Shown here: positions 14,015 through 36,362 of the stretch, one piece after another
Position numbering within the stretch: the stretch's first letter is position 1
How the letters are laid out: each line of letters starts with the position of its first letter
From: Acidobacteriota bacterium
GTDB taxonomy: Bacteria > Acidobacteriota > Thermoanaerobaculia > UBA5066 > Gp7-AA6
Assembly (NCBI GenBank): GCA_027307335.1
Contig: DAHUXD010000060.1
Location: 62,001-126,000 of the forward strand
Length of the DNA stretch: 64,000 nt
Direction of reading: 5' to 3'
Notes under the pieces: model-generated
What the model saw: only the letters and a program-made list of their open reading frames with translations
Told to the model about the DNA's origin: nothing
Database searches by the model: none
Position numbers and translations under genes: made by a program

Positions 14015-15550
14015 TCAGTTCCAGTGGTGGTAGTGCCACCAGACCTTTCTCAGGTCGAAGCCGGCGTCCCGGCAGAGATAGATGGGCACGTTCTCCTCGC
14101 TCATGCCGTAGCGGGACTCGTGCGGAAACGCCTCGTACGAGCCGCAGTTGTCCTTCACGTCGTCGAGGCTCCACTGCAGCACGATCAGGTTGCGGTCGTC
14201 CTCCGTCGGGGGACCCCAGAACCAGTGGTTCTGATGCCGGCTGTACGCGTGCGGCAGCCCGAGCGCCGGACCGAAGAGGTTGATCGCGCCCGCCTCGCCG
14301 TAGTTGCCGGTGAGGATGCCCGTGCGCGCGCGCTCCTCGGGCGGCAGCGACCGGTAGATCGCCGCCACGTCGCGGGCGAGCTCCGGCCAGCCGAACTGGT
14401 CGCCCATCGGCTGAGGCAGGGGTCCCTCGTGGTGCACCTCCGCCTTCTGCGGGCGCGCGCCGAGCGCCTGCTGATACGCGAGGTACTTCTCCGGAGGCAG
14501 CATCCAGGTCGCGAGGGGAAGCGTGACGAGGCCTCCCGCGATGATCACCGAAACGGTCGCGGCGCGCACGGCGCGGCGGCCGGCGGTCCAGCGCTCGATC
14601 GCGACGCCGCCGCCGGCGAACGCCATGGGGTAGATCGGGAAGAGGTAGTAGTCCTTGGCGTGCGCCGCCATCATGAGCCCGAAGAAGACGACGAACGTCA
14701 GGCCGAGCGCGCGCCAGCGCCGGCTCCGGACGAGGAACACCGCGCCCGCGAGCCAGACGGGGAAGAGGAGCGGGTGCAGGGCGAGGATCTGCTGGAGGAC
14801 GAAGGCCGGCGGCGCGAGCACGACGTTCTTGCCCTCGCGACGGACGTTCGCGAGATCCTCGAGCGTCGGGAAGTGGTGCCGCCACTGCCAGACGAGATTC
14901 GGGAGGAAGAGCGCGAGCGCGATCGCGCCGGCGATCCAGATCCACCGCTCGCGGAAGACGCGGCGCTCGGGAGTCAGCAGCAGGGCCACGACGACGGCCG
15001 CTCCGAAGAAGAGCGTCGAGTGCTTGTTCTCGAGCCCGAACCCCGCGAGCACGCCGAACCACGGCCAGAGCCTCGTGCGGCCGGTCCTGAGAATGCGCGC
15101 GAGGACGAGGATCGCGCCCATCCAGAAGAGCGGCTCGAAGGCGTTCATCGTCAGCAGGCTGTCCATCACGAGGAGGCCCGGCGCGAAGAGGACCGCGAGC
15201 CCCGTCAGGAGCTGCGCGTAACGGCCGCCGCCCAGCTCGCGCGCGATCGAGATCGCGAGCGCGACGAGCGCCGTCCCGGCGAGCGCGGGAAGGATCCGGA
15301 GCGCGGCGAGCGAGCCGCCGAGCGCGAGTGCGACGCGCGCGTACACGGCGATCAGCGGCGCGGCGTCGACGTAGCCCCAGTCGAGGTGCCGCGCCATGTC
15401 GAGGTAGTAGAGCTCGTCGCGGAAGTACCCGTACCGCTGCACGCTCGTCGCCAGGTGGAGGAGGAGCTTCGCGCCGCACAACGCGGCGAGAACACCGCGC
15501 GACAGCGGCGGGAGGACGGGAGCGGGGGCGTCGTGCGCGATCGCGGACAT
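14015..15550 (-). CDS. ArnT/PMT-family membrane glycosyltransferase
   Basis: A 511-residue GT-C integral membrane enzyme that moves a sugar from a polyprenyl-phosphate donor. The first loop carries the conserved GYFRDELYYLDMARHLDWGY with the catalytic acidic pair, followed by about ten hydrophobic helices and a soluble C-terminal domain (from about residue 360). Acceptor unknown: lipid, protein or envelope glycan. I use the ATG at 15550-15548. A GTG at 15577 would add nine residues; its first base is next to the inverted-repeat element at 15578-15671, so that longer start may be an artefact of the insertion. Confidence 0.85.
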   Translation of the reverse strand: MSAIAHDAPAPVLPPLSRGVLAALCGAKLLLHLATSVQRYGYFRDELYYLDMARHLDWGYVDAAPLIAVYARVALALGGSLAALRILPALAGTALVALAISIARELGGGRYAQLLTGLAVLFAPGLLVMDSLLTMNAFEPLFWMGAILVLARILRTGRTRLWPWFGVLAGFGLENKHSTLFFGAAVVVALLLTPERRVFRERWIWIAGAIALALFLPNLVWQWRHHFPTLEDLANVRREGKNVVLAPPAFVLQQILALHPLLFPVWLAGAVFLVRSRRWRALGLTFVVFFGLMMAAHAKDYYLFPIYPMAFAGGGVAIERWTAGRRAVRAATVSVIIAGGLVTLPLATWMLPPEKYLAYQQALGARPQKAEVHHEGPLPQPMGDQFGWPELARDVAAIYRSLPPEERARTGILTGNYGEAGAINLFGPALGLPHAYSRHQNHWFWGPPTEDDRNLIVLQWSLDDVKDNCGSYEAFPHESRYGMSEENVPIYLCRDAGFDLRKVWWHYHHWN

Positions 15551-15577
15551 CGTTGTGAGCCGCGACAATGCTGTCAC

Positions 15578-15671
15578 GGGGTCAGGTCTCTGAATGTGTG
15601 ACTTTGCAGACCCGTGAGTCGCCTCGGGGGCTCGGGATACCCGAAGGTCACATTTTCAGAGACTTGACCCC
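15578..15671. repeat. 94-bp element with 25-bp imperfect terminal inverted repeats (MITE/REP-like)
   Basis: The left arm (15578-15602) begins GGGGTCAGGTCTCTGAA. The right arm (15647-15671) is its reverse complement with 22 of 25 matches. A 44-bp centre separates them. The sequence resembles the terminal palindromes that accompany REP-associated tyrosine transposases, but no transposase is present in the window. The right arm supplies the last seven codons and stop of the sigma factor gene; the left arm ends just before the glycosyltransferase start. No clear target-site duplication is seen. Confidence 0.8.
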
Positions 15672-16331
15672 AATGCGTCCGAGGACCCGCTCGACCATCC
15701 GGTCGCACCGGGTGCCGAGGAACGGGAAGGCCGCCCGGGCCTGGCCGCCCGCGAGCGCGAGCAACTCGCGCCGGAGCGATGCGCGGGCGCGGTGGAGGCG
15801 CGTCTTGACGGCCTCCTCCGACAGCTCCAGACACTCGGCCGTCTCGGCCGTCGAGAGCTCCTCGACTTCCCGGAGGACGAACACCGTCCGATAGGTCTCG
15901 GGCAGCGACCCGACCGCGGCCTCGAGCATCGTGCGGACCTCCTTGCCGAGGGCCTCCGCCTCCGGACCGGACTGTGCGAGCGGCTGTTTCATCGGCTTTT
16001 CCCCGTCCTCTTCCTCCGGGCGCCACTCCTCGAAACGGCGCTCCCGGCGCGCCCGGGCCCAGCCCTCGTGCAGCACGATCCGGACGAGCCACGTCGAGAA
16101 CGCCGCGCGTCCCGCGAACTCCCCGAGGTGCTCGTAGGCCCGCACCCAGGCCTCCTGGGCGAGGTCCTCGGCCTCGGCATCCGACGGCAGGATGGCCCGG
16201 GCGATCCGGAAGACGCGCTGGTTGTACCGGCGCATCAGCACCTCGAACAGCTCCACCTCGCCCCGGCGGACCCGTTCGATCACCTCGCCGTCGGGCGGGC
16301 CGGGGTTTTGCACGGACTTCGAGTGGGCCAT
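15648..16331 (-). CDS. ECF-type RNA polymerase sigma factor
   Basis: A 227-residue sigma-70 family factor with region 2 (LMRRYNQRVFRIARAILPS, then EAEDLAQEAWVRAYEHL) and region 4 (LPETYRTVFVLREVEELST, AECLELSEEAVKTRLHRAR). The linker between them is acidic and rather long. The ATG at 16331 has GGAG seven bases upstream and is preferred over a GTG 11 codons earlier. The last residues GVKSLKM and the TGA come from the inverted-repeat element, so the native C-terminus was probably different. No anti-sigma gene is adjacent. Divergent from the DoxX gene, it may control the 16437-17238 pair and itself. Confidence 0.9.
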   Translation of the reverse strand: MAHSKSVQNPGPPDGEVIERVRRGEVELFEVLMRRYNQRVFRIARAILPSDAEAEDLAQEAWVRAYEHLGEFAGRAAFSTWLVRIVLHEGWARARRERRFEEWRPEEEDGEKPMKQPLAQSGPEAEALGKEVRTMLEAAVGSLPETYRTVFVLREVEELSTAETAECLELSEEAVKTRLHRARASLRRELLALAGGQARAAFPFLGTRCDRMVERVLGRIGVKSLKM

Positions 16332-16436
16332 GTTCTCCGGCAACGTCAGGATAGAGTGTCCCACGCCCGAAAGGTGACGGGGGCTGTAACCTCCGGCGCC
16401 CGTCTCACTCTATCGCGTCGAGGAGGTGAGAGACAT

Positions 16437-16865
16437 ATGGACAAGCGCCTCGACTCCGCGTGGTGGGCCCTCCGCCTCGGCCTCGGCCTCGGGCCCTTCC
16501 TCGCCGGTCTCGACAAATTTTTCGACATTCTCGCCAACTGGGAGATGTACTTGAGCCCCCTCGCGCTGAAGGTCGTTCCCGTGAGCGCCACGACGTTCAT
16601 GCACGTCGTCGGCGTGGTCGAGATGATCGTGGGCCTCGCGATCCTGACCCGCTGGACGCGTCTCGGGGCTTACGTGGCGATGCTCTGGCTCGTCGCCATC
16701 GCGATCAACCTCGTCACGACGGGGATGTTCTTCGACCTCGCAGTGCGCGACGTCGAGATCGCGATCGGCGCCTACACGCTGGCTCGCCTGACCGAGGTCC
16801 GCGAAGCCGCCGGGGTGCGCACCGCCGCGCCTCCGATGCCGTCCGCCGCCACGAGAACCGCCTGA
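16437..16865 (+). CDS. DoxX-like integral membrane protein
   Basis: A 142-residue protein with four hydrophobic helices: ALRLGLGLGPFLAGLDKFF, the LKVVPVSATTFMHVVGVVEM region, YVAMLWLVAIAINLV and a final VEIAIGAYTLARL. This matches the DoxX/DUF417-like group found with ECF sigma factors and small secreted proteins in stress regulons. The ATG at 16437 follows an AGGAGG nine bases upstream. Function unknown; proposed roles involve thiol or redox homeostasis. Confidence 0.75.
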   Translation: MDKRLDSAWWALRLGLGLGPFLAGLDKFFDILANWEMYLSPLALKVVPVSATTFMHVVGVVEMIVGLAILTRWTRLGAYVAMLWLVAIAINLVTTGMFFDLAVRDVEIAIGAYTLARLTEVREAAGVRTAAPPMPSAATRTA

Positions 16866-16899: not shown

Positions 16900-17238
16900 A
16901 TGAAGAGAGTCCTGCTGGTCGCATCCATCCTGGCCGCCCTTCCGCTCGCCGCGTCCGCCGAGGTCTGGAAGAACGCCTCGCTCCTCGACTCGATGTGCGC
17001 GGCGAAGGAGAAGGTCGCGAAGAATCCCGACGCGCATCCGACCTCGTGCGCGCTGCAGTGCGCCAAGAGCGGCTACGGGATCATGGCCGACGGGAAGTAC
17101 CTGAAGTTCGACGAGAAGGGCAACGAGCAGATCGCGTCGGAGCTGAAGGCGACGAAGAAGACCGACCACCTGCGCGTCACCGTCGACGGGGATCTCAAGG
17201 GCGACACGATCGCGGTCAAGAGCGTCAAGCTCGACTGA
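16900..17238 (+). CDS. Small secreted protein of unknown function
   Basis: A 112-residue protein with a clean signal peptide (MKRVLLVASILAALPLAASA, cleavage near residue 20). The mature part has three cysteines (MCAAKEK, SCALQCAKSGYG) and a compact strand-rich end (YLKFDEKGNEQIASELKATK, then VTVDGDLKGDTIAV). The cysteines may form a disulfide or bind a metal. It is 34 bp behind the DoxX gene with a GAAAGGGGAGAAA ribosome-binding site, so the two are likely co-transcribed under the divergent sigma factor. Confidence 0.7.
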   Translation: MKRVLLVASILAALPLAASAEVWKNASLLDSMCAAKEKVAKNPDAHPTSCALQCAKSGYGIMADGKYLKFDEKGNEQIASELKATKKTDHLRVTVDGDLKGDTIAVKSVKLD

Positions 17239-17246
17239 CGGCCGCT

Positions 17247-17338
17247 GTCATCCCGAGGGCGTCAGCCCGAGGGATTCCTTTCTGACCGATACGGCGGCTC
17301 GAAAAGGGATCCCTCGTCGCTTCGCTCCTCGGGACGAC
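17247..17338. repeat. Dispersed palindromic repeat, copy 1
   Basis: Outer arms are GTCATCCCGAG (17247-17257) and CTCGGGACGAC (17328-17338). Inner parts also repeat GAGGGAT and GATCCCTC. A second copy in the same orientation lies at 26120-26204. No reading frame is credible here; the remaining bases up to 17454 hold nothing I recognise. Confidence 0.75.
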
Positions 17339-17454
17339 GGAGCGCAGGAAACGACGAGGCGCGCGGCCGTCCGTTCGATTCGCGGCGAATGCGCTGCGCC
17401 GCCTCGTGCCCGTCGACCGCGTGCCTGCGCCCACGAACGGCTAGGATTCCGCCG

Positions 17455-36306: not shown

Positions 36307-36362
36307 GTGTAGGGGCGGGGCTTGCCCCCGCCCGCGGGCGGCCGCGAGGGCCGCCCCTACAC
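36307..36362. repeat. 56-bp palindromic element between coxE and coxM
   Basis: Perfect 12-bp outer arms GTGTAGGGGCGG (36307-36318) and CCGCCCCTACAC (36351-36362). Inside are GGGCTTGCCCCCGCCC and GGGCGGCC / GGCCGCCC. The right half is nearly identical to the hairpin at 12572-12592. It may be a terminator, a processing site or a mobile miniature repeat; it lies inside an otherwise tightly packed cluster. Confidence 0.7.

Follow-up and report, generated by a model that had tools for sequence, protein, structure and literature searches.

An inverted-repeat element, probably of the TIRtron kind, that supplies the C-terminal tail and stop codon of an ECF sigma factor

In the window, the whole stretch of 64,000 nucleotides analysed here, the gene for an ECF sigma factor (15648..16331, minus strand) ends inside a 94-bp inverted repeat. 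This arrangement raises the question of what kind of repeat can provide the last codons of a regulatory gene, and how it came to rest there. The preliminary description, made from the bare sequence, saw an insertion that seemed to have trimmed the sigma factor. Gene calls in the present analysis come from a codon-usage model, for which 27 long open frames in the window served as the training set, not from a standard gene finder.

The element (15578..15671, G subline, see below) is present as first described. Its left arm (15578..15605, plus strand, GGGGTCAGGTCTCTGAATGTGTGACTTT) and its right arm (15644..15671, read on the minus strand as GGGGTCAAGTCTCTGAAAATGTGACCTT) form an inverted repeat with 28-nt arms that are 86% complementary and separated by 38 nt; three positions differ across the first 25 nt, in agreement with the 25-bp ends with 22 matches reported originally. 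The spacer between the arms (15606..15643) varies in length and sequence among the copies found by comparison across the genome. Exact matches to GGGGTCARGTCT in the window are confined to these two arms, and by eye no direct repeats or target-site duplication are apparent in the 12-nt flanks of the copies. Membership in a known Rfam RNA family was rejected, as a search with the element gave two sub-threshold matches only, to mir-640 and a viral stem-loop, both far under the gathering scores. A literature search with the letters of the repeat returned an unrelated match only. Elsewhere in the window, downstream of a gene at 16900-17238, lies a repeat of a ATCCCGAGG...GAGGGATTCC...CGCTTCGCTCCTCGGGACGAC kind (17245-17350); one 22-mer of it occurs in five copies in the genome with at most two mismatches, against none for the control.

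The sigma factor is 227 residues long from its ATG, with a GTG upstream at 16364. It scores 256.9 bits against NF008888 (cut-off 204), and sigma regions 2 and 4 are matched nearly end to end; its domains are intact. The minus strand from 15671 to 15648 reads GGG GTC AAG TCT CTG AAA ATG TGA, which bears out the earlier reading that the right arm encodes the last seven residues (GVKSLKM) and the TGA. In 11 aligned orthologues, from genomes of which the nearest belong to other genera rather than to close strains, this tail is absent throughout; it was thus seen in no aligned orthologue lacking the repeat. Identity to these orthologues is 6% over the last seven residues, 54% over the preceding 20 and 45% over the whole protein. 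Past the conserved CDR motif the window protein has 16 residues and the orthologues have 9-25. Because the domains are intact and the orthologous tails are unconserved and of similar length, a replaced tail fits better than a trimmed one, and the proposal that the sigma factor had been shortened was dropped, although its companion, that the element supplies the C-terminus, stands. The alignments therefore support a C-terminal tail written by the element; loss of residues is unsupported.

The next gene on the minus strand encodes a PMT_2-type glycosyltransferase (14015..15550), identified by Pfam, the codon-usage model and its orthologues. A GTG codon (15577-15575) does abut the left end of the element, as was pointed out at the outset, but it is probably not the start of this gene, because the codon-usage model favours the ATG at 15550, which lies 27 bp past the element, and alignments with orthologues of more than 55% identity leave out at least the first 15 residues of the GTG-started protein.

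The element is one of many. With at most two mismatches, GGGGTCARGTCTNTGAA has 48 + 44 matches in the 4.37-Mb genome, compared with 0 + 1 for a reversed control pattern, and a chance repeat was rejected on these counts. A scripted search of 51 fetched loci (L033-L083), taken around arm matches and the two transposases of the genome, found 45 paired copies; with the window copy there are 46. One nested duplicate call in L041 was removed, and six loci (L034, L052, L077, L079, L080 and L083) were left out, having no pair under 260 bp. The copies fall into two sublines of 23 each, G with CTCTGAA arms (GGGGTCAGGTCTCTGAA) and C with CTCTCAA arms (GGGGTCAGGTCTCTCAA); for this count, which was used for placement, L058, L070 and L081 were assigned to G and L053 to C. 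The analysis of arms and folds has 24 G and 22 C copies because L053 is counted as G there. Under this latter rule the G copies are 63-170 bp long, with cores that vary in length and sequence, and the C copies mostly 61-62 bp. In the C subline (e.g., L056, L064 and L068) the outer 14 nt are common with G and the inner arms are different. The copy at L038 (1001-1170) has an extra arm inside, i.e., nested or partly duplicated ends. Across 60 genomes, the organism's own and 59 relatives, the repeat is multi-copy in its own genome only; two relatives have one match each and 57 have none.

Two Y1 transposases are encoded in the genome, on contigs C16 and C60. The C16 gene (C16:106386-107354) specifies 323 aa from its ATG and matches both NF047646 (REP-associated tyrosine transposase, NCBIfam; 98.4 bits, cut-off 80) and Y1_Tnp (45.1 bits, cut-off 23), with NHYH and YVVLNP motifs in its sequence. 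The presence of a RAYT-type gene, raised as a check in the preliminary description, is thus borne out, and the gene is flanked by the same ends as the element: it sits between family arms (L034, 999-1036 and 2000-2037; 38 nt, 84%), and most copies have GGGGTCAG at their ends, as does the transposase element. The last codons of the transposase (KVTLSET) and its TGA lie within an arm, so an outward-read arm of the full element ends the transposase, and an inward-read arm (GVKSLKM) of the window element ends the sigma factor. No transposase belonging to the C subline was found in the genome. Beside the right end of the transposase element lies a third arm (L034, 2036-2073), as though by tandem addition of ends. 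The C60 transposase is flanked by GTAG-tagged repeats, which form a separate family (42 + 50 matches versus 5 + 4 for the control); the window holds an inverted pair of these repeats (36309-36325, plus; 36344-36360, minus).

These features bear on the class of the element. Its ends had been compared with the palindromes linked to RAYT transposases; a RAYT-type transposase with the same ends does exist, but it belongs to the TIRYT/TIRtron branch and not to the GTAG-type REPs. TIRtrons carry TIR-associated tyrosine transposases (TIRYT), and many of their TIRs are reported to share the motif GGGGWSAS (Di Nocera et al., 2013, PMC3733652). As in TIRtrons described there, the transposase is a long Y1/HUH enzyme (motifs NHYH and Y---NP) whose gene is flanked by inverted repeats that contain GGGGWSAS, present in this family as GGGGTCAG, and that overlap the gene, and TIR repeats, single or dimeric, are dispersed in the genome. 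Unlike in that account, the dispersed copies are here nearly all compact inverted pairs, and a second subline (C) has only its outer ends in common. The best reading of the element is that of a non-autonomous TIRtron derivative, TIRtrons being TIR relatives of REP/RAYT systems, because the C16 transposase gene is enclosed by the same ends and an arm provides its final codons and TGA. The TIRYT group largely corresponds to TnpAY1 subclass 2.1 (Quentin et al., 2018, PMC6006769), for which a C-terminal HTH extension is reported; the C16 protein has about 180 residues after its core, where such an HTH did not register in Pfam, a search up to E 10 giving Y1_Tnp only.

With REPINs and GTAG REPs associated with RAYTs (PMC3116915, PMC3733652) the family has in common inverted repeats around a short spacer and an associated Y1 transposase, and, like GTAG REPs (PMC3733652), it lies mostly between convergent or same-direction genes. 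Its ends are 25-28 nt TIRs with GGGG, in contrast to the short GTAG-tagged palindrome of those REPs, and the stop that they supply is TGA in two frames, where GTAG REPs supply TAG (PMC3733652). Membership in the GTAG REP/REPIN class was rejected, since the ends have GGGG and no GT[AG]G foot, and the GTAG repeats of this genome surround the C60 transposase. A further parallel is QMITE2 of Coxiella burnetii (PMC5896051), a short non-autonomous element at gene 3' ends that adds residues to a protein, although QMITE2 is 150-190 bp long and has direct repeats of 7-11 nt (PMC5896051); where it or other bacterial MITEs are fused to reading frames, functional annotated genes are reported to be affected at their 3' ends (PMC5896051, PMC2229807). 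The element family is new, while the repeat type and the gene-end habit are already known.

The association of such transposases with inverted repeats extends beyond this genome. When named genomes were scanned, relatives of the C16 protein turned up at 80 loci (Acidobacteriota, Aminicenantes, Deltaproteobacteria, Nitrospirae, Verrucomicrobia and others); 67 of these loci were used, the rest being omitted mainly as the contig or match ended nearby, by no fixed rule. An inverted repeat scoring at least 16 joins both flanks at 45 of these 67 loci, compared with 29 of 1321 mismatched pairings, which themselves still share motifs. A test for out-facing GGGGWSAS separates the sets weakly (29/67 real versus 433/1318 mismatched). 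Many of the relatives' repeats start with GGGGTCA, and near-identical outer ends occur at L125 (GGGGTCAGGTCTGTGATC...) and L149 (GGGGTCAGGTCTCTAG...).

The position of the copies relative to genes is the main point of interest. The codon-usage model was used to look for a gene entering the element at each edge. For the G subline this gave 33 incoming gene ends, 30 of which have their stop in the interval from 24 nt inside the element to 9 nt before it: 13 of the 33 stop inside, 17 stop 1-9 nt before it, two are far off and one is apparently spurious, L038 right being probably a spurious call. Ten of the 13 stops supplied by the element end the protein as xGSGL and three are of the GVRSLKM type, the sigma factor included; the coding score is weak (35.9) for one of the 13, L040 right. 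Pfam domains were found in nine of ten element-ended products scanned, and in several (e.g., thiolase, MTHFR and L-PSP) the match runs to the last positions of the family. In the C subline 17 of 25 incoming ends hug the element, nearly all with their own stop 0-11 nt before it. Stops occur in two of three inward frames in 39 of 48 G arms, and the C arms have fewer inward stops. Such hugging of gene ends is already known for REPs, which between convergent genes are mostly no more than 20 bp from each 3' end and often supply the stop codon with their ends (PMC3733652), and is seen here in a TIR family.

From these observations, a short non-autonomous TIRtron copy very probably was moved in trans by the C16 transposase, landed at the 3' end of the sigma gene and wrote its tail and stop. 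The element would be a pair of transposon ends without a gene between them, mobilised by the only long REP-associated tyrosine (HUH) transposase of the genome, the gene for which is bounded on C16 by the same ends. It would have come to rest at the extreme 3' end of the ECF sigma gene, where the first 24 nt of the right arm are now read in frame as GVKSLKM and TGA, leaving the sigma domains in place with a transposon-derived tail. Such landings would be mild, because only gene ends are touched and most G arms carry a stop in two of three inward frames, and copies would persist mainly where they touch only the last codons or a few bases after the stop, with selection as the presumed cause of the position bias. 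When transcribed, the element may form a long hairpin over the stop codon that probably affects mRNA 3'-end stability or termination efficiency.

The hairpin itself invites a different account, in which the repeat is a functional 3'-end cassette, bidirectional, ending transcription or protecting mRNA, and kept by selection between convergent or same-direction genes. The element RNA has a strong predicted fold (-50.3 kcal/mol, z -6.97) with the stop codon buried, all 46 paired copies fold stably in silico, and a hairpin in the joint transcript, as envisaged from the start, is thus predicted. Of the convergent copies, 8 of 10 in G and 5 of 7 in C lie close against both genes (3 of 151 random points), and G copies are never found between divergent genes (0/23, compared with 588/1932 random points; C 5/23). 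Against a cassette, no terminator-like site or U-tract was found in 15400-16500, and the two arms do not covary within G copies, 402 of 2000 permutations reaching the observed within-element match; C arms match even less within elements than between them, the observed value being equalled or exceeded in 1985 of 2000 permutations. Since two arms are no better matched for belonging to one copy, there is no sign of selection for hairpin pairing in either subline. Nor is the repeat an old shared feature, given its absence from 57 of 59 relatives and its single matches in the other two. A cassette kept for its function is accordingly rather unlikely. As neither a U-tract nor arm covariation was found, an effect of the hairpin on expression is an inference; it is likely but would be incidental. 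In E. coli, REPs within 15 nt of a stop are reported to stall ribosomes (PMC12306157, citing Liang 2015).

The bias could also arise if the transposase directed insertion to stop codons or to structure there, instead of random insertion followed by selection. Incoming ends fall within -30..+11 nt in 30 of 33 G and 17 of 25 C cases, compared with 190 of 1495 random intergenic points of the window; Fisher values for placement are nominal, because this control samples one 64-kb window repeatedly. The GGGG follows a T at 28 of 46 G edges, but no other fixed target sequence is seen, and in a related family in genome G060 close placement is rare, the arms lying mostly 30-90 nt or further from gene ends; among the 27 arm rows listed there, some of which repeat one arm, an incoming stop at -24 to +9 is confined to L236, L240 and L242. 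The ends of that family (L223-L252) are mostly solitary (9 + 21 matches, with a partner only at L240/L241). Closely spaced genes and purifying selection could account for some of the bias, and we consider targeting unlikely as its source, while the data do not split targeting from selection. An improbable third account holds that a rearrangement at an existing copy brought the sigma and glycosyltransferase genes together, the copy then happening to end the sigma frame. When the window flanks are joined without the element, the sigma frame continues into the glycosyltransferase frame and meets no stop before that gene ends, an unlikely in-frame fusion; the site is therefore not a clean insertion into a recognisable ancestral end, and a later change or rearrangement must be assumed. 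In G004 and G006, which have the best sigma matches, the two genes are on separate contigs, but contig breaks make synteny uncertain, and most other copies fit gene ends as closely with no rearrangement needed. Among 16 gene ends that run into elements, joining the flanks recovers a stop within 13 nt in six, the chance estimate assuming base composition at 70% GC, and none within that distance in ten; at L048 it restores an ATGA overlap of two genes.

A bolder extension, which we regard as quite doubtful, is that the ends are shaped for quick inward stops and the transposase favours gene ends, so that the family would spread as ready-made 3'-end cassettes (C-terminal tag, stop and hairpin) that re-end host genes, the sigma gene included. 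Of three inward frames, 1.45 contain a stop in the upstream arms at 49 related transposase loci, versus 1.05 when the arms are base-shuffled, and 0 of 500 shuffles reach the real value, although this count is not independent evidence because the arms share ancestry.

In this genome a TIR-type tyrosine-transposase family acts like REPs: its copies crowd against gene ends and provide the final codons of some dozen predicted genes, including enzymes as well as a regulator. With its clean set of copies and a single candidate transposase, the family is suited to asking whether targeting or selection places such elements, and for annotation it carries the warning that protein tails such as GVRSLKM and GSGL are transposon-derived.
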